From Spartobacteria bacterium (GTDB taxonomy: Bacteria > Verrucomicrobiota > Verrucomicrobiia > Chthoniobacterales > UBA10450): DNA of 64,000 nt. Positions 52,831 through 61,431 of the stretch are shown one piece after another. The stretch lies in contig PLCM01000029.1 of the NCBI GenBank assembly GCA_003134765.1, forward strand, positions 154,891 through 218,890, in the 5' to 3' direction. The position numbers and the translations under genes are program-made. Position 1 is the first letter of the stretch; every line of letters starts with the position of its first letter. The notes beneath the pieces were generated by a model. That model worked only from the letters and a program-made list of their open reading frames with translations, ran no database searches and had not been told where the DNA came from.

Positions 52831-53050
52831 GCGCTTCGAACGGCGCCCGATCCAGCCGGTCCGGAGACTATTGGGCGCTGGCCGATAGTCATCAAATAAT
52901 AGCGCGGTAGGGAACTACCTCTGGGCCTTCTGTCGTCCAGCGCGGTGCCCGCATTGCGGGTCGGTCCGTGAGTTTTTGGGAGAGCCTTTCAACCCGAGCC
53001 TCCATAAATCGCTCGCTAACGTTTCCGACCCGAATTAGAAACGGCGGAAC

Positions 53051-54022
53051 ATGGCGGTGCAAAAGGTTTCAGTCGTCACGGGCGGGGCGGGTTTTTTGGG
53101 ATCGCATCTCACGGATCGGCTGCTGGCGGAAGGGCATCGCGTCATCGCCATCGACAATCTGATCACGGGAAACCCGAAGAACATTGCGCACCTGGGCGGC
53201 AACGAGAATTACCGGTTCATCAAGCACAACGTCTCGAGCTATATTCTCGTCGAGGAAGCGGTCGATTATGTTTTTCATTTCGCGTCGCCGGCCAGCCCCA
53301 TCGATTACCTCGAACTTCCGATCCCGACGCTGAAGGTCGGCGCCCTCGGCACCCATAACACGCTCGGGCTCGCGAAGGCGAAGAAGGCCACGTTCGTCCT
53401 CGCCTCCACCTCGGAATGCTACGGCGATCCGCTCGTTCATCCGCAGACGGAAGATTACTGGGGAAATGTGAACCCGATCGGCCCGCGCGGCGTGTACGAC
53501 GAAGCGAAACGATTCGCCGAGGCAATGACGATGGCCTATCACCGCTATCACGGGATCGACACCAAGATCGTCCGCATCTTCAACACCTACGGGCCGCGGA
53601 TGCGATTGCGCGACGGGCGGGTGGTGCCCGCGTTCATTGGCCAGGCGTTGAGTGGCACGCCGTTGACCATTTTCGGCGATGGCTCGCAGACGCGCTCGTT
53701 CTGTTATGTGTCGGACCTGATCGACGGAATTTTCCGGCTTGCGATGAGCGATTTTCACGAGCCGGTGAACATCGGTAATCCGCGGGAGATGACGATCAAA
53801 CAATTCGCCGAAGAGATTATCCGGATCACCGGAACGAAATTGCAGATCGAACATAAACCGTTGCCGGTGGACGACCCGAAAGTGCGGCAGCCGGATATCA
53901 CCCGGGCGCGGAAAGTTCTGGGCTGGGAGCCGCGGGTTGAGTTCGATGAGGGAATCGCGAAAACGATCGAGTATTTCAAAGGCTGCCTGGAACGCGGGGA
54001 ATTAGGCGAACGAATCCAGTAA
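53051..54022 (+). CDS. UDP-glucuronate decarboxylase-like NAD-dependent epimerase
   Basis: A 323-residue extended SDR. The NAD site is [18 protein letters not shown], followed by [20 protein letters not shown], a signature of UDP-xylose synthases, and the SDR triad residues in [11 protein letters not shown] and [33 protein letters not shown] and [18 protein letters not shown] are typical. It probably makes UDP-xylose from UDP-glucuronate for surface glycans. It precedes the pilus cluster but has a palindrome and low-complexity gap between. Confidence 0.92.
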
Positions 54023-54030
54023 GAATTCCA

Positions 54031-54116
54031 GGTAGGGACGCCGCGCTGCGGCGTCCGCTGAATTGGGGTTGACGTATTAAACAACACCTCGGACGCCGCA
54101 GCGCGGCGTCCCTACC
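54031..54116. repeat. Palindromic element, GGTAGGGACGCCGCGCTGC family
   Basis: Perfect 26-base arms (54031-54056 and 54091-54116) and a 34-base loop that is AT-richer than its surroundings. A degenerate copy is at 14967-15046. Confidence 0.92.
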
Positions 54117-54179
54117 ATGGTTTCCTCCTCCCGATGGCTTCAGACCTTCGTCACTCCAAACTCACAGCTTGATTTGGTC

Positions 54180-54350
54180 GTTGGGATTTGAAATTTCGCT
54201 GGGATTTGGATCCTGGGATTTGGACCTTCCTTTACTTGAGGTTTGGGATTTGGAGCATCCGTCCAATGGCCGCTGAGCCGCCGAAGCGGAAATCCCAAAA
54301 CCGAAGCTCCAAATCCCAATGACAAAAAGATGGGGTTTTGCGCCGCGAAC
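54180..54350. repeat. Degenerate GGGATTTGG repeat tract
   Basis: The motif GGGATTTGG and close forms recur (about 54183, 54199, 54215, 54246) and the complementary CCAAATCCC at about 54308, all in an AT-rich region unlike the neighbouring genes. Together with 54350-54420 (AATTTTGGTTTTGGTTTTTT) it fills the gap before the PilM gene; no coding was seen. Confidence 0.7.
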
Positions 54351-54420
54351 TTTTAGATTTGGAGTTTGAAGTTTACTTAGAATTTTGGTTTTGGTTTTTT
54401 GGATTTTGAATAACTGAGTC

Positions 54421-56172
54421 ATGCCTGTCGCCACCCGCATTCTCAGCCTCAATCTCGGCTCGCACGCCGTCGGCCTGGCTGAATTCCAGACCCAATCGAA
54501 CGGCGGACTCGTCCTGAACGGTTACTGCCTGCGCGAAATTCCGGCTGATCCGTCGAATGAGGGTGCGCGCAATGCGAAAATCGCCGCGGCCTTGCGCGAG
54601 ATGCTGGCCGAATTGGGAATCAAAGGCGGCGCCGTCAATTACGCGATCGCCGCGCAGTCGGTTTTCGCGCGGTTTGTGAAACTGCCTGCGGTGGAGGAGG
54701 AAAAAATCGAGCGCATCATTGCATTCGAGGCGCAGCAGAATGTGCCGTTCCCGATCGATGAAGTCGTGTGGGACTACCAACTCGTCGGCGGCGGCGCGGA
54801 CGAACAAATTCAGGTCGTGCTGGTCGCGATCAAGGAGGACCTGCTCGAGAGCGTGAACGCCTCGGTCGAAAGCGCCGGATTGCGGACCTCGATCGTCTGC
54901 GTCGCGACGATGGCGCTCTACAACGCCTTTCGTTACAACTACAGCGATCTCGGCGGCTGTTCGCTCCTGGTTGATATCGGCGCGCGCACCACCAACCTCC
55001 TTTTCATCGAGCCGGGCAAAATTTTTTCTCGGAGCGTCGCGATTGGCGGCGCCTCCGTTTCGTCCGCGATCGCGAAAGAATTTGGCGAACCAATGGCGTC
55101 GGCGGAGTTCCGGAAAAAGCGCGACGGTTTCGTCAGCCTGGGCGGCGCCTACGCAGAACCGGCTGATCCGGAAGTTGCGCGGGTTTCAAAAATTGTCCGC
55201 GGCACGATGACACGGCTCCACGCCGAGATGATGCGCTCGATCAGCCATTATCGCGCGCAGCAGCAGGGCAATGCACCCGACCGTCTGTATTTGTGCGGCG
55301 GAAGCACGAGCACGCCCTACATGCGGGAATTCTTCCAGGAAAAACTCCAGGTGCCGGTCGAATTCTTTAATCCGCTGCGAAACGTCGCCGTCTCGGAAGC
55401 AGTCGATGCCACCGAGGTCGCGCGCGCCGCCCATCTTCTGGGCGAATTGACCGGCCTCGCGCTGCGTGGCGCGACCACCTGCCCGATGGAGTTGAATCTG
55501 CGGCCACAAAGCGTGGTGCGCCGGCAGGAGATGGAACGGCGCCGTCCGTATTTTGTGCTCGCGGCTGCTTGCTTCGTGGTCGGGCTGCTGGCCTGGGGCG
55601 CTTATTTTTGGCGGGCCGCGCAGGTGCAAGATCGCGCGACGGAGCGTCTCCAGGACAAGGTCGGTAAGATGCAAGGGATCGAAAAGGAAATGAGCCAGGT
55701 CCGGAAAGAGACGACCGCGTTGGATAATCAATCAGTTCCGCTCGTTGCGGCGATCGGTGAGCGCAGTTTTTGGCCGCTCCTCCTCGAAGATCTCAACACC
55801 CGTTTGCCGAAGGAAGACATCTGGATCACGGAACTGGTCCCGACCTCGGGCGGGAAACCGCTCGGCGCGCCGGATTCGCGCACCGTTCTTGCCGGGACAA
55901 CGCCAACTCCCGTCCCGTCCCTTCCGCGTCCCGGCGCCACGCCGGCCGTGCCGGCGATCGACGGTCTGCTCGTGCGCGGGCTGTATCTTTTTAATCCGAA
56001 ACAACAGGAAGTGGTCGTTGATTATTTTCGGAACCTAGTTGGGTCGCCCTGGCTCGCGATCGATCCGAACAATCAGGCGAAAGTGATAAAGCCCACCACG
56101 CCGAACAACACGGATTGGGCTTTCCCCTACGAGCTGCGCCTTGATCTGAAAAAGCCAATCCCGCTTCCATGA
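54421..56172 (+). CDS. pilM: PilM-PilN fusion, type IV pilus assembly (Amuc_1101-like)
   Basis: A 583-residue protein. The first 370 residues are an actin-fold PilM: RILSLNLGSHAVGLAEFQT opens, VKLPAVEEEKIERIIAFEAQ matches PilM, and SLLVDIGARTTNLLFIEPGK is the ATP-site region; YLCGGSTSTPYMREFFQEKL is the later motif. A linker (MELNLRPQSVV) and a membrane helix (PYFVLAAACFVVGLLAWGAYF) lead into a PilN-like coiled-coil and periplasmic part. The arrangement matches Akkermansia Amuc_1101. It heads the operon of five genes; no SD sequence is obvious before ATG 54421. Confidence 0.88.
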   Translation: MPVATRILSLNLGSHAVGLAEFQTQSNGGLVLNGYCLREIPADPSNEGARNAKIAAALREMLAELGIKGGAVNYAIAAQSVFARFVKLPAVEEEKIERIIAFEAQQNVPFPIDEVVWDYQLVGGGADEQIQVVLVAIKEDLLESVNASVESAGLRTSIVCVATMALYNAFRYNYSDLGGCSLLVDIGARTTNLLFIEPGKIFSRSVAIGGASVSSAIAKEFGEPMASAEFRKKRDGFVSLGGAYAEPADPEVARVSKIVRGTMTRLHAEMMRSISHYRAQQQGNAPDRLYLCGGSTSTPYMREFFQEKLQVPVEFFNPLRNVAVSEAVDATEVARAAHLLGELTGLALRGATTCPMELNLRPQSVVRRQEMERRRPYFVLAAACFVVGLLAWGAYFWRAAQVQDRATERLQDKVGKMQGIEKEMSQVRKETTALDNQSVPLVAAIGERSFWPLLLEDLNTRLPKEDIWITELVPTSGGKPLGAPDSRTVLAGTTPTPVPSLPRPGATPAVPAIDGLLVRGLYLFNPKQQEVVVDYFRNLVGSPWLAIDPNNQAKVIKPTTPNNTDWAFPYELRLDLKKPIPLP

Positions 56173-56200
56173 ATTGGTCTGCCAAATCTAGCGACCGCCG

Positions 56201-56260
56201 CGGAGGGACGCCCTCCGTGGCGTTCCATTATTTTAGGGACGGGACAGAGCCCGTCCCTCC
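56201..56260. repeat. Two adjacent hairpins between the PilM and Amuc_1100-like genes
   Basis: CGGAGGGACGCCCTCCG-type hairpin followed by AGGGACGGGACAGAGCCCGTCCCT. Together they fill most of the 97-base gap; the downstream start codon follows 10 bases later. Confidence 0.8.
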
Positions 56261-56269
56261 AAGTTTCGT

Positions 56270-57196
56270 ATGAACTGGTTTCGGGAGAATCGGTTCCTCG
56301 GCACGTTCCTGATTGCGTTCGGTGTCTGCCTGCTCGGCGCCGGCTGGTTCCTCTTCAGCGCCAAGGCGGATTCGGACGAGGCGTCCGCGCGCTTCCTCAA
56401 CGCTTCGACGGAACTGAACCGACTCGACCGGCTCGCGCCGTATCCGAGCGCGGAGAACCTGCGCAAAATGAAGGCGCACGCCGAAGATTATTCGAGCGCG
56501 CTCGCAAAGCTGAAAGAGGAATTGAAGGTCCGGGTGACGCCGGCCGCGCCGATGGCGCCGAACGAATTCCAGTCGCACCTGCGCGTGGCAATGAATGCGG
56601 TGGCCGACAAGGCGCGGGCGAACAAGGTAAAGTTGCCGGACAAGTTTTATCTCGGTTTCGACGAGTTTGCCTCGGCCCTGCCTAACGAGTCGGCCGCGCC
56701 GCTACTCGGTCAGGAGCTGGTCCAGATCGAATGGCTGGTGAACAGTTTGCTGGAGGCGCATGTAAACGCACTGAGTGCTTTCCATCGAACGCCCTTGCCG
56801 GAGGAGCATGGAGCGACGGCGCTCCCCACCGTTACCCCGGCGCCCGGGACAAATCCGGCCGGGGCGATTCCGGCGGCTGCGAAATTGTTCGAACGAAACG
56901 TGGTGGAATTTACGTTTTTTTCCACGCCCGGGGCGGCTCGCAAAGTCATCAACCAAATCGCTGGAGCGAACCAGCACTTTTGCATTATCCGGCTGCTGCA
57001 TGTGCGGAATGAGAAAGAGAAGGGACCTCCGCGCGAGAGTGCGGAATCAGCAACGCCCGCGCCCGCGGTTCCTTCGCCGGTCCCGGCAGTGTCTCCCGGC
57101 GCCAAACCTGCGCCCGGGGCCGCGCTGAATTTTATTGTCGGCAACGAGAAGATCGATACCACGGCCAAGATCGAGATCGTGAGGTTCACGTTTTGA
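56270..57196 (+). CDS. Amuc_1100-like pilus-cluster membrane protein
   Basis: A 308-residue protein. One N-terminal membrane helix (FLGTFLIAFGVCLLGAGWFLF) is followed by a coiled-coil region (ASTELNRLDRLAPYPSAENL) and a globular domain. The segments MAPNEFQSHLRVAMNAVADK, YLGFDEFASALPN and GQELVQIEWLVNSLLEAHVN align in order and spacing with A. muciniphila Amuc_1100 (from memory: PTAFQNELKTF, LGFQVYSTQAPS, FELKAINSLVNKLAECGL). The C-terminal part is Pro/Ala-rich and ends KIEIVRFTF. It lies in the same gene order as Amuc_1100. Role: PilO-like pilus assembly element, inferred. Confidence 0.8.
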   Translation: MNWFRENRFLGTFLIAFGVCLLGAGWFLFSAKADSDEASARFLNASTELNRLDRLAPYPSAENLRKMKAHAEDYSSALAKLKEELKVRVTPAAPMAPNEFQSHLRVAMNAVADKARANKVKLPDKFYLGFDEFASALPNESAAPLLGQELVQIEWLVNSLLEAHVNALSAFHRTPLPEEHGATALPTVTPAPGTNPAGAIPAAAKLFERNVVEFTFFSTPGAARKVINQIAGANQHFCIIRLLHVRNEKEKGPPRESAESATPAPAVPSPVPAVSPGAKPAPGAALNFIVGNEKIDTTAKIEIVRFTF

Positions 57197-57204
57197 AAGC
57201 GATT

Positions 57205-57362
57205 CTGGGGAGCGCACGCGCCCTCGCGTGCTGGTTGCGGCGCCTCGCCGCAACGAATTTGTTTTTGACAATTGGAACTTTCCAGACGCACGAAACGTCA
57301 GCGAAAAAGTTCGCGAAGGCGACGCGCCTTCGCCAACACGCGAGGGCGCGTGCGCTCCCCAG
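57205..57362. repeat. Long palindrome between Amuc_1100-like and Amuc_1099-like genes
   Basis: Perfect 26-base arms (57205-57230 and 57337-57362) with inner short inverted repeats (TTGCGGCGCCTCGCCGCAA; GCGAAGGCGACGCGCCTTCGC). The outer sequence GGGGAGCGCA... is shared with the element at 37875-37979. The loop of about 106 bases is unusually long. Confidence 0.9.
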
Positions 57363-57374
57363 ACTGATACCCAC

Positions 57375-58313
57375 ATGACCTGGCTCCGTGCTCATTACGA
57401 TCGCGTCGCGGTTTTCACCGCGGCGTTCTTCCTTTTCGCCTCCGCTTTGCTCATCACGCGAAACGCCTGGCAATTCGGCGACAACCTCGGACTCCAAAAC
57501 GCGCCGCCGCCAAAACCGGCCCCGCCGCCGCCGAAGGCCGTCGAGATGGAACAGGCGATGGAAAGACTGAAGCAGCCGGCGCAATGGACATTCAGCAGCC
57601 GCTCGGGCCTGTTCGTTCCCGAAAAACATTTCATCGGCGCGAACGGCCAGCCCGCCACCTTGCAGACGACCGAGGTCCATCCGCCCGTGCCCAACGATTG
57701 GCTCGAACAGTTTTCCCTCCCCATCGCCGATGCCGATGTCCTTACCCAAGACCCCGATGGCGACGGCTTCAACAATCTCGAGGAATGGCAGAATCACACC
57801 AACCCGACGGACAAGAATTCGCATCCGCCCTTCATCGCAAAGCTGAAAATGAAATCGTTCGCGCAGGAGCCGTTTAAGCTCGTCTTTGCCTCCTGGGTCG
57901 GCGACACCTTCGCTCTGAATACGAGCGACCTGAAAGAGCCGACGCAATTCCTCAAGATCGGCGACTCGATTTGGGGAACGAAATTCAAGATCGTGAAGTT
58001 CACCGAGAAATACGAGACGAACAAATACGGCACGAGAGTCGACGTCTCCGAGTTGACTCTGGAAAATCGCGAGACGCACCAGCAGCTCAGCCTGGTGAAA
58101 GAGAAGATCATGATCTCACCTGAGTCGGTGGCCAATTTTGTTTACGAGTGGGGGGAGCGCCGAGAATTCGCCGTGAAAAAAAACCAGGAATTTTCATTGA
58201 AACCGGAGGAACAGATTAAATATAAGTTGATCGATGTTTTCCCCAGCAGCGCGATCGTCGTCGATACGCAGAAGCCGGACGCCCCGATCGAGGTCCCTCC
58301 GCTCACGCCATAA
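57375..58313 (+). CDS. Amuc_1099-like protein with Ca-binding-type loop
   Basis: A 312-residue protein with one N-terminal membrane helix (VAVFTAAFFLFASALLITR), a proline-rich linker (APPPKPAPPPPKAVE), and a globular region. The segment VLTQDPDGDGFNNLEEWQNH then TNPTDKN is a clear aspartate-rich loop of the thrombospondin type 3/EF-hand-like kind. Later parts (KFTEKYETNKYGTRVDVSEL) are beta-rich. An earlier in-frame reading passes through the palindrome upstream and is rejected; ATG 57375 starts at the membrane helix. By position it corresponds to Amuc_1099. Confidence 0.75.
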   Translation: MTWLRAHYDRVAVFTAAFFLFASALLITRNAWQFGDNLGLQNAPPPKPAPPPPKAVEMEQAMERLKQPAQWTFSSRSGLFVPEKHFIGANGQPATLQTTEVHPPVPNDWLEQFSLPIADADVLTQDPDGDGFNNLEEWQNHTNPTDKNSHPPFIAKLKMKSFAQEPFKLVFASWVGDTFALNTSDLKEPTQFLKIGDSIWGTKFKIVKFTEKYETNKYGTRVDVSELTLENRETHQQLSLVKEKIMISPESVANFVYEWGERREFAVKKNQEFSLKPEEQIKYKLIDVFPSSAIVVDTQKPDAPIEVPPLTP

Positions 58314-58337
58314 GGCCGAGCGTCGACCGACGTCGAC

Positions 58338-58448
58338 GAGCGGCGGATTTCCAACCCCCGAGCTGCAACGCGGCGAAGCGGCCACTTTAGTTGTCTTGGG
58401 CGTCGCGCCCAAAAAGTCTAGCGCACGCGATTTGGAAATCGCCGCTCC
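58338..58448. repeat. Palindromic element between Amuc_1099-like and secretin genes
   Basis: Arms GAGCGGCGGATTTCCA (58338-) and TGGAAATCGCCGCTCC (58433-58448) are inverted with one mismatch, and TTGGGCGTCGCGCCCAA lies inside. It nearly fills the 153-base gap and ends 18 bases before the secretin start. Confidence 0.85.
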
Positions 58449-58466
58449 TGGTTAGGAACGGAACCT

Positions 58467-61112
58467 ATGAAAAACTCAGCGTCGAAAATCTTGTTGATGG
58501 CGGCATTCGCAACAGCGGTTTGCTTCACAGCGCTCGCCCAGAACACAAACACGGTCGCGGAGCGCGAAGCGGCGCGACGGCAGGCGGCGTTGCCGCGCGG
58601 GCAGGAAGCGCTCGGGCGCGCCAAGGCGGCGATGAGGGAGGGGAATTACACCGCAGCGCACGAAGAATTTCGCCTGGCGCTCACCTTTCTGCCGGACGCG
58701 GTGATCAGCGAGAAATCGCACGATGAAGCGTTGAACGGTTTTTGCGCGAGCGGAATGAAGCTGGCCGAGCAAAAGGTGGCTCAGGGAAAATACGGCGAAG
58801 CGGAAGCGATTTGCCGCGAGATCCTGAGCAACCGTCACGATCCGAATTACCGGCCCGCGGCCGAGATGCTGGCGCGGTTACAAGCGCCGGGAAAGTTGAA
58901 CCGCACGATGGGCCCGAAGTTTCTCTCGAAAGTCGAGGAAGTGAAGAGGCTGCTCACCGATGCGGAAGGTTATTACAACAGCGGCCGCTACGATCTCGCG
59001 TTCAAGAAATATGAGCAGATCCTCGCGATCGATCCCTACAATGTCGCGGCGCGCCGCGGCGAAGAGCGACTCAATCTGACGAAAACGCACTACGGCGAGG
59101 AAGCTTATAATGAAACGCGGTCGCGCCAGCTCTGGCAGGTGCAAAAAGGGTGGGAAGAGCCGGTTAAAAAATATGGCGACACCGTCGGCCCGATCACCGA
59201 CGCGTTCACGAAAGACGCGACCGGCACCGCCCGCATCACCACCAAGCTCAACACGATCATCATTCCGAAGATCGAATTTCGCGATGCGAGCATTCGCGAA
59301 GCGATTGAGTTTATCCGACAACAAGCGGCGGAGAACGATCCCGGGGCGGATGGCCGCAAAGGGGTGGATATTGTCCTGCGCGTAAATACGCTGGGCACGC
59401 GCGCGGAAACGACATCGACGACAACCGTCGTTTCCTCGACCGCGCCCGGAGTCTCGCCGGAACCGACCGCGATTGCACCGCCACCGGTTCCCACAACCAT
59501 CGCGGCACCATCGATTAATCCGGCAGACGCGCGGATCACAATCACGCTGAATCAAATTCCGCTCGGCGAAGCTCTCCGTTACATCGCCAGCCAGGCAGGC
59601 CTGAAGGTAAAGGTGGAGCCTTACGCCGTGTCGATCATTCCGATCAGCGAGTTGAGCAACGACCTTCTGACGAAACAATATCGGGTGCCGCCGGGGTTCA
59701 TCACCACTTCGGTCAACGTCGGGCCTTCCTTGCTGGGTCCTTCCTCAACCGGGACAACGAAGACCTCCACATCGACGACCGGAACGGCGCCGGGAACCAT
59801 TGAATCCACCGGCGGGCATCAATTGGTCCAGCGCGAAGGCGCGAAGGAATTTCTCGAGAGCCAGGGCGTGAGCTTTCCGCCCGGAGCCAGTGCGAACTTC
59901 CTGCCGCAAAGCAGTCGTCTCATCGTGCGGAATACGGCGGATAATTTGGACTTGGTTGATGCAATCGTGGAGCAAGCGAATGCCTCAGGACCAAAGCAGG
60001 TCGAGATCGAAGCCAAATTCCTGGAGATCACCCAGACGAATCTGAAGGAGCTTGGATTCGACTGGTTGCTCGGACAATTCAACATTCCTAGTTCACACCG
60101 CATCTTTGGCAGCGGCGGAACGTCGGGGACGGGTCCTGCTGTTTCGCAAAACAACTTTCCGTTCGTGCCCCCGGGCGGAGACCCGGTGGGACAGTTTCCG
60201 ATCACTTCGGGAAACCGGAGCGGCAATTTTGCGATCTCCGGGAATGCAATTGATTCTCTCCTTGGTGGCGGCACGGCTGCTTCCGCGCTCGCTCCCGGAA
60301 TATTCGGTCTCAGCGGAGTTTTCACCGATCCGCAGTTTCAGCTCGTGATTCGGGCTTTGAATCAAAAGAAAGGCGTTGACCTGCTTTCCTCACCCCGCGT
60401 CACAACCAAGAGCGGCCAACGCGCCCAAATTCAGATTGTGAGAGAATTCCGGTTTCCAACCACCTTCGCCGAACCTCATATCCCCGACATCCGGGGCGGC
60501 ACCTCCGGAGGAGTGACCACCAACAGCATCAGCCTGCCGGTGGTTGGTCCAAGCACACCGGGAGGTTTCGAGACCAAGAACACCGGCGTGGAACTGGAAG
60601 TGGAACCGGTCGTCGGGCCGGACGGAGTTACCATCGATCTCAACCTTGTTCCCTCGGTCGTAGAGTTCGAAGGCTTTATCAATTACGGAAGTCCCATCAA
60701 GACGGTCAATCCAGCCTTGCTTGGTTTTATCGGAGGGGTGACGAACGTCCTGGGACTCAATGACAGCATCGTCCTGACGGATAATGTCATCAACCAACCG
60801 ATCTTCAGCGTCCGCAAGGTAACCACGAACGTCAGTGTTTACGACGGCCAGACCGTCGTTCTCGGAGGTCTGATGCGAGAGGATGTCCAGAAAACTGAAG
60901 ATCGCACTCCGATCCTCGGCGACATCCCGATCGTGGGCCGGCTCTTTCGGACGAATGCCGAGCAGCACATCAAGCGCAACCTGGTGATCTTTGTCACGGC
61001 GCGGCTCGTCACCCCCGGTGGTCAACCGGTGAATTCGACGGAAGAGATGGAGGAATCAGAAGACGTTATCGAACCGCCAATTTTGCCGGAAGTCCCATTC
61101 TACAAGAAGTAA
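58467..61112 (+). CDS. Type IV pilus/type II secretion-like secretin (Amuc_1098-like)
   Basis: An 881-residue outer-membrane secretin. A signal peptide (LLMAAFATAVCFTALAQ) is followed by TPR-like helices (GRAKAAMREGNYTAAHEEF, YYNSGRYDLAFKKYEQILAI), short-domain N repeats (IPKIEFRDASIREAIEFIRQ, ITLNQIPLGEALRYIASQAG) and the secretin core (VIRALNQKKGVDLLSSPRVT, VYDGQTVVLGGLMREDV, PILGDIPIVGRLFRTNAEQH). The last 30 residues are acidic. It would form the outer-membrane pore of the machine. The start ATG at 58467 follows GGAACGGAACCT. Confidence 0.92.
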   Translation: MKNSASKILLMAAFATAVCFTALAQNTNTVAEREAARRQAALPRGQEALGRAKAAMREGNYTAAHEEFRLALTFLPDAVISEKSHDEALNGFCASGMKLAEQKVAQGKYGEAEAICREILSNRHDPNYRPAAEMLARLQAPGKLNRTMGPKFLSKVEEVKRLLTDAEGYYNSGRYDLAFKKYEQILAIDPYNVAARRGEERLNLTKTHYGEEAYNETRSRQLWQVQKGWEEPVKKYGDTVGPITDAFTKDATGTARITTKLNTIIIPKIEFRDASIREAIEFIRQQAAENDPGADGRKGVDIVLRVNTLGTRAETTSTTTVVSSTAPGVSPEPTAIAPPPVPTTIAAPSINPADARITITLNQIPLGEALRYIASQAGLKVKVEPYAVSIIPISELSNDLLTKQYRVPPGFITTSVNVGPSLLGPSSTGTTKTSTSTTGTAPGTIESTGGHQLVQREGAKEFLESQGVSFPPGASANFLPQSSRLIVRNTADNLDLVDAIVEQANASGPKQVEIEAKFLEITQTNLKELGFDWLLGQFNIPSSHRIFGSGGTSGTGPAVSQNNFPFVPPGGDPVGQFPITSGNRSGNFAISGNAIDSLLGGGTAASALAPGIFGLSGVFTDPQFQLVIRALNQKKGVDLLSSPRVTTKSGQRAQIQIVREFRFPTTFAEPHIPDIRGGTSGGVTTNSISLPVVGPSTPGGFETKNTGVELEVEPVVGPDGVTIDLNLVPSVVEFEGFINYGSPIKTVNPALLGFIGGVTNVLGLNDSIVLTDNVINQPIFSVRKVTTNVSVYDGQTVVLGGLMREDVQKTEDRTPILGDIPIVGRLFRTNAEQHIKRNLVIFVTARLVTPGGQPVNSTEEMEESEDVIEPPILPEVPFYKK

Positions 61113-61116
61113 TCCT

Positions 61117-61431
61117 ATGAAGCAGTATCGCTCTGTTGTTCTTGCCCTCTTGCTCGGAATGCTCTTATCGAGCGTGGCCCTCGGAGGTGCCAAGAAGAAG
61201 CCAGCGCCGCCGCCGCAAAATCCGGCTTCCACCATTGCCAGTGTTACGGCGAACAGCATCACCGTGACGGAAGGAAAGAATGCCAAAGCGCTCATGATCA
61301 CTCAGTTCACCGAGATAAACGTGAATGGACTGAGAGCGACTGTCGCCGATTTGAAGCCGGGCATGGCGGTGACGTTTGTCATCAGTACCGACGCGACCAA
61401 GGCCAGTCGCATCAACGCGACTGGGAAGTGA
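61117..61431 (+). CDS. Small exported protein of the pilus cluster
   Basis: A 104-residue protein starting MKQYRSVVLALLLGMLLSSV with a signal peptide, a Lys/Pro-rich linker (AKKKPAPPPQNP), and a short beta-rich domain (TIASVTANSITVTEGKNAKA, then LKPGMAVTFVISTD), resembling an OB/DUF5666-like fold. It begins 4 bases after the secretin stop, so it is in the same transcript. Function is unknown. Confidence 0.8.
   Translation: MKQYRSVVLALLLGMLLSSVALGGAKKKPAPPPQNPASTIASVTANSITVTEGKNAKALMITQFTEINVNGLRATVADLKPGMAVTFVISTDATKASRINATGK

Follow-up and report, generated by a model that had tools for sequence, protein, structure and literature searches.

What is the native role of proteins such as Amuc_1100 of Akkermansia muciniphila, whose host effects are under study and whose native function is not settled, if a relative is encoded by a bacterium that is probably a soil member of Chthoniobacterales? 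The question is raised by five open reading frames (ORFs), all on the + strand, at positions 54421-61431 of the window, i.e., the entire 64,000-nucleotide stretch analyzed here (G000:C23:154891-218890), which belongs to a 4.05-Mb genome assembly with 41 contigs and an estimated completeness of 94%. We consider it likely, with a probability of roughly 0.8, that the genes at 54421-61112 encode a type IV pilus alignment complex across the envelope, with counterparts of PilM-PilN, PilO, PilP, and PilQ in place and role. Judged from the gene order and its PilO-like predicted fold, the Amuc_1100 relative would likely be an inner-membrane part of the pilus assembly machine and not a gut invention. 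The probable affiliation of the organism was deduced from the titles of the nearest loci: the closest named one, L099, is a Verrucomicrobia contig of a metagenome-assembled genome with 87% identity in the Amuc_1101-type protein and "20cm" in its title, and other near loci are titled Chthoniobacterales or Spartobacteria.

The features are as follows (aa, amino acids; relatives of Amuc_1101, Amuc_1100, Amuc_1099, and Amuc_1098 are termed 1101, 1100, 1099, and 1098):

54421..56172, + strand: Amuc_1101 family (NF045709), 583 aa; PilM-type actin-like domain, membrane helix, putative PilN-like periplasmic part
56270..57196, + strand: Amuc_1100 family (NF038287), 308 aa; single N-terminal membrane helix, helical stalk, PilO-like alpha-beta-beta-alpha-beta-beta domain
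57375..58313, + strand: Amuc_1099 family (NF042425), 312 aa, PilP position; membrane helix, TSP3-type repeat, two small beta domains
58467..61112, + strand: Amuc_1098 family (NF042912) outer-membrane secretin, 881 aa, PilQ position; N-terminal TPR repeats
61117..61431, + strand: predicted exported protein, 104 aa, lineage-specific neighbor; no family above cut-off
54124..54420, no strand: place of Amuc_1102 (MUL2A) in the closest relative, L099, by flank alignment; the gene is missing in the window

Four protein families in one order

All four NCBIfam equivalog cut-offs are passed, i.e., with 653.2 bits versus 650 for Amuc_1101 (a narrow margin), 217.1 versus 180 for Amuc_1100, 196.6 versus 50 for Amuc_1099, and 846.4 versus 750 for Amuc_1098. 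The original prediction had recognized five same-strand genes, four of them in the order 1101-1100-1099-1098, and was correct in this respect. Since four adjacent genes match four families in the family order, chance is no sensible explanation. Purifying selection on all five ORFs (ratio of nonsynonymous to synonymous substitution rates [dN/dS] of 0.09-0.20 versus L099) was counted in favor of the proposed function.

The 1101 protein contains a PilM domain at residues 11-350 (PF11104, E = 1.2e-38, 133.3 bits versus a cut-off of 27), scores 158.5 bits with the PilM model TIGR01175 (cut-off, 133), and has the PilM chain 3jc8_Ma as its best solved relative (E = 1.4e-35). A membrane helix is predicted near residue 378 and is followed by a periplasmic part; judged by place and layout only, this C-terminal half would be PilN-like. 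The FtsA-like role of an older annotation, quoted in an excerpt of PMC5332112, was rejected, because the PilM scores are far higher.

The previously noted layout of the 308-aa protein was found, with a single predicted N-terminal membrane helix (hydropathy maximum from residue 13), long helices after it in the structure model, and the ordered family segments EFQSHL, YLGF, and ELVQIEWLV. Among 113 relatives, from which sequences outside the length range, L060, and L077 had been excluded, 111 have a single early hydrophobic helix and one has a lipobox. The model shows the anticipated Amuc_1100 fold, and its best match after Amuc_1100 itself is PilO, at a lower but clear level (Foldseek, E = 0.012, probability of 0.99). 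Also counted in favor was an Amuc_1100 family member within a complete cluster that exceeds the Pfam PilO cut-off and is one of two database proteins with both domains. A search for a canonical PilO elsewhere in the genome of the window gave no match. PF04350 was matched in 23 of the 194 genomes of our Verrucomicrobiota sample; the match in G046 is the Amuc_1100 gene itself, and in three of four neighborhoods examined by eye (L049, L207, and L209) the gene lies between GspL-like and secretin-like genes; L208 could not be judged. The 1100 protein of the window is 72% identical to that of L099, though 1101 and 1099 reach 87-88%, as recombination or a faster change of 1100 might produce; its identity is higher (75%) with that of L145, another locus without Amuc_1102.

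For the 1099 gene, the best start is ATG 57375, in an ORF that opens earlier at GTG 57228; the family searches and the structure model used a translation from 57372 (codon CAC), i.e., one residue too early. The model (pLDDT of 89.2) comprises one membrane helix, a TSP3-type repeat, and two small beta domains; TSP3_bac reaches 21 bits, under its cut-off of 25, and 16 of 28 relatives have a match to it at E <= 1. Fold searches with this model gave no clear match, and PilP and GspC were absent from the lists. Many distant relatives have a zinc-ribbon-like C..C...C..C stretch ahead of the repeat, which the window protein lacks (alignment A3).

The 1098 protein has a secretin domain (PF00263, E = 2.3e-34, 118.9 bits versus a cut-off of 27.5) and TPR repeats (TPR_14, E = 2e-07), and scores 121.6 bits with the PilQ model TIGR02515, below the cut-off of 284. 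In L151 (12699-17843), 1099 and the 1098 match are separated by another ORF of secretin size (850 aa), which may have arisen by tandem secretin gene duplication; similar gaps are present in L140, L142, and L146. The small exported protein had been proposed as a fifth member of the cluster, which we do not uphold. No family exceeded the cut-off in NCBIfam and Pfam searches, and the gene is not part of the conserved module, because relatives were found in only 3 of 80 named loci (L099, L102, and L145; a fourth row, L159, is a weak match inside its 1101 ORF). Its dN/dS versus L099 is 0.20.

Synteny across Verrucomicrobiota and the Amuc_1102 gap

NF038287 matches 148 of the 194 genomes at E 1e-3, 16 of them above the strict cut-off. 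The weak matches are credible because of their place next to 1101: among the matches listed, 122 of 124 genomes (those in both listings, i.e., 124 of 147 typed 1100 places, from the 148 matches) have 1100 immediately downstream of 1101 in the same orientation, and the two exceptions have the genes on different contigs. The complete order 1101-1100-1099-1098 is present in 39 of 42 loci, i.e., the window and 41 loci chosen by 1100 matches; L073 shows no 1100 because ORFs of more than twice the query length were excluded, L077 shows no 1101, and L088 ends early. It is likewise complete in 63 of the 80 named loci that were retrieved by 1101 alone, and 14 of the 17 incomplete ones have less than 500 bases of contig after the last gene found. 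The two sets share a few genomes, and some named and unnamed loci represent the same genomes (e.g., L119/G013, L126/G166, and L164/G115). The shared order therefore extends past the generic PilM and secretin genes, and the suggested partnership of 1100 with the secretin holds at the level of gene order only.

In L060, the 1100 and 1099 parts form one 533-aa ORF, the first part of which matches NF038287; this was counted in support of the module. The cluster of L077 (6500-10500) looks as if it were in decay, with short 1100 and 1099 ORFs and, by eye, transposase-like ORFs inside it. Record titles of module loci name palsa, bog, groundwater, or lake sources, and together with the presence of the module in most genomes of the sample they fit the earlier view of a general pilus assembly function rather than a gut adaptation. 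Two of 120 listed database relatives of 1100 (P0042 and P0072; 73% identity) are named "Amuc_1100 family pilus-like protein [Chthoniobacterales bacterium]."

Amuc_1102 (NF042424; MUL2A in the literature) matches 74 of the 194 genomes and, among the matches listed, is located directly before 1101 in 68 of 70. A profile built for this analysis placed it ahead of 1101 in 68 of the 77 named loci that could be judged (the other 3 of the 80 are too short upstream of 1101). Profile searches found it neither beside 1101 in the window nor anywhere in the genome assembly. Flank alignments equate window positions 53003-54123 with L099 7100-8217 and 54421-56172 with L099 9001-10749, and L099 keeps the Amuc_1102 ORF in between; the near relatives L126, L108, and L157 also have the gene. 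By parsimony on a quickly built 1101 tree, six changes account for the absences, L164 included; L164 was rejected as a loss, because the gene is on another contig of its genome, i.e., has moved. As far as the assemblies go, five lineages lack Amuc_1102 genome-wide, namely, that of the window; L119 plus L145; L120; L109 plus L118, L121, and L166; and L154. The four-gene order is complete in seven of these nine genomes (the contig of L109 ends within a partial 1099 and that of L120 after 1100). Since Amuc_1102 is missing in the window and in other lineages, it would be an accessory component.

The word TTTGGGATTTGGAGC is present once per strand in the gap, at 54242 (+) and 54306 (-), within window positions 54242-54320, and similar words are found near the gene in L099; these repeats may have helped a deletion. 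They could also, in an assembly of 41 contigs and 94% estimated completeness, have caused a collapse that merely mimics a loss. Such an artifact would concern the accessory-gene claim only, and we regard it as unlikely, if not negligibly so, given that Amuc_1102 is unmatched anywhere in the genome of the window and that eight other genomes from four further lineages lack it both beside 1101 and genome-wide.

A proposed pilus alignment complex and its alternatives

In the proposed complex, the PilM half of 1101 would face the cytoplasm and connect with the PilB/PilC/PilT motor. One helix each would hold the C-terminal half of 1101 and the PilO-like 1100 in the inner membrane, and the two would pair in the periplasm via their helices and alpha-beta domains; 1099 would bridge to the 1098 secretin ring in the outer membrane, through which the pilus would pass, and Amuc_1102 would be an accessory part, usually encoded ahead of the four core genes. 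Membrane placement, contacts between the parts, the motor served, and the building of a pilus by this module are what we infer.

The absence of pilin and PilB/PilT ATPase genes that had been noted earlier is true for the window, but such genes are present in the same genome. PF00437 has four long PilB-type and eight shorter PilT-type matches; contig C21 carries two long PilB-type genes beside a PilC-type and a pilin-like gene, C23, some 100 kb ahead of the window start, two PilT-type genes along with a pilin-like one, and C27 a prepilin peptidase gene, and 15 N-methyl signatures were found in the genome. Motor ATPases, PilC-type, prepilin peptidase, and pilin-like genes are hence all encoded outside the window. 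By eye, 7 of the 194 genomes (G008, G036, G042, G054, G057, G072, and G152) are without a PF00437 match stronger than 1e-100, and all seven are also without an 1100 match and without a 1101 match stronger than 1e-8, which was counted in favor of the pilus function; they fall in two family groups and thus represent about two events. A prepilin peptidase was sought in nine genomes and was absent in G036 and G042 and present in the other seven.

Several observations weigh against an alignment complex. A number of genomes match the ATPase strongly and 1100 not at all (e.g., G010, G080, and G088), and three loci (L116, L134, and L153) break the order despite room; L134 (10749-19749) has no 1099 or 1098 within 8 kb after 1100 and is a real synteny break. 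Pfam matches to PilN in 1101 and to PilP in 1099 of the window are lacking, and PilN was matched weakly in 1 of 15 relatives of 1101 (0.047). Profile comparison of 1100 gave 25% for PilO and 2-4% for GspM, i.e., no secure kinship, and 89% for GspM versus PilO, and a PDB profile search with 1100 did not find PilO. One transcript is not established, because no promoter-like site was found and the four module genes are separated by 97, 178, and 153 bases.

The published location of Amuc_1100 also runs counter to a buried machine part. Excerpts of PMC5332112 report surface immunofluorescence and enrichment in a cell-envelope fraction, a review (PMC10688800) places the protein on pili, and a type IV-like pilus attaching to glycans and particles has been proposed (PMC13174399). 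Accordingly, the cluster might make surface structures, with Amuc_1100 in or on the pilus or outer membrane, and serve chiefly for glycan or particle attachment. The early hydrophobic helix in 111 of 113 relatives against a single lipobox, the PilO fold, and the fixed place between PilM-type and secretin genes make this improbable in our view, and an attachment role of the finished pilus is compatible with an alignment complex. Even less probable, with only a slim chance, is that the cluster encodes a type II secretion platform or a hybrid secretion device rather than part of a pilus. The type II platform (GspC, GspL, GspM, and GspD) is alike in having actin-like and alpha-beta subunits under a secretin, but the GspL and GspD models stay far below their cut-offs (24.4 of 65 and 139.1 of 351 bits), whereas PilM exceeds its own (158.5 of 133). 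The genome moreover encodes two additional secretins, one of them next to a PilB-type ATPase on C13, and has separate type II-like genes on C38 (T2SSF over and T2SSM below the cut-off, others named by eye).

Comparison with known systems and biological meaning

The alignment complex proposed here resembles the PilMNOPQ system of type IVa pili (Pseudomonas, Myxococcus, and Aeromonas) in the PilM domain, the secretin, the PilO fold, the single-helix inner-membrane layout, and the gene order, with pilM, N, O, P, and Q in the same succession in an Aeromonas record (PilO and PilM confirmed; the others by place, length, and eye). It differs in that PilM and the PilN-like part form one chain, that 1099 has a membrane helix, a TSP3-type repeat, two beta domains, and no PilP match, and that the secretin carries TPR repeats. 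With the Amuc_1098-Amuc_1102 cluster of A. muciniphila and Akkermansiaceae, it shares the four families, their order, and the 1100 fold. In contrast, the window has a lineage-specific 104-aa gene after the secretin and no Amuc_1102, and hence not the complete MUL2 locus (amuc_1099-1102), and its organism is placed outside Akkermansiaceae by the kinship groups of the genome search, which derive from best scores and in which Akkermansia-like genomes share only the class.

Neither the cluster nor the PilO label is new. The cluster is in print for Akkermansiaceae and Verrucomicrobiales outside Akkermansia (PMC13174399, a 2026 paper that terms amuc_1099 and amuc_1100 "uncharacterized"), and the Amuc_1100 product is already labeled "pili assembly protein (PilO)" in an excerpt of PMC11573778. 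PMC5332112 and PMC4960237 report abundance, surface labeling of Amuc_1100, and the PilQ nature of Amuc_1098. A publication joining the fold, the phylum-wide synteny, and the Amuc_1102 loss was not found in a search that covered few subscription papers. The original prediction holds in its main points. What can be claimed soundly is the presence of an already known module in an additional lineage, where its native role would likely be that of a pilus alignment complex. A more far-reaching scenario, to which we give slightly less than even odds, is that Verrucomicrobiota have rebuilt this complex: PilM and PilN would have become one chain, Amuc_1100 would be a diverged PilO, PilP would have been replaced by the unrelated TSP3-plus-twin-barrel Amuc_1099, and Amuc_1102 would be a detachable add-on that was repeatedly lost. 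In that case, Amuc_1100 would be buried in the machine, and hosts would encounter it only upon cell breakage or shedding.

For a protein studied for its host effects, the PilO fold and the phylum-wide module provide a testable native role, and the predicted inner-membrane place is at odds with the location on the cell surface that has been published. The recurrent lack of Amuc_1102 amounts to a natural experiment, in which core and accessory parts are told apart without a mutant; in the Amuc_1102-free lineages, the machine would work without this protein.
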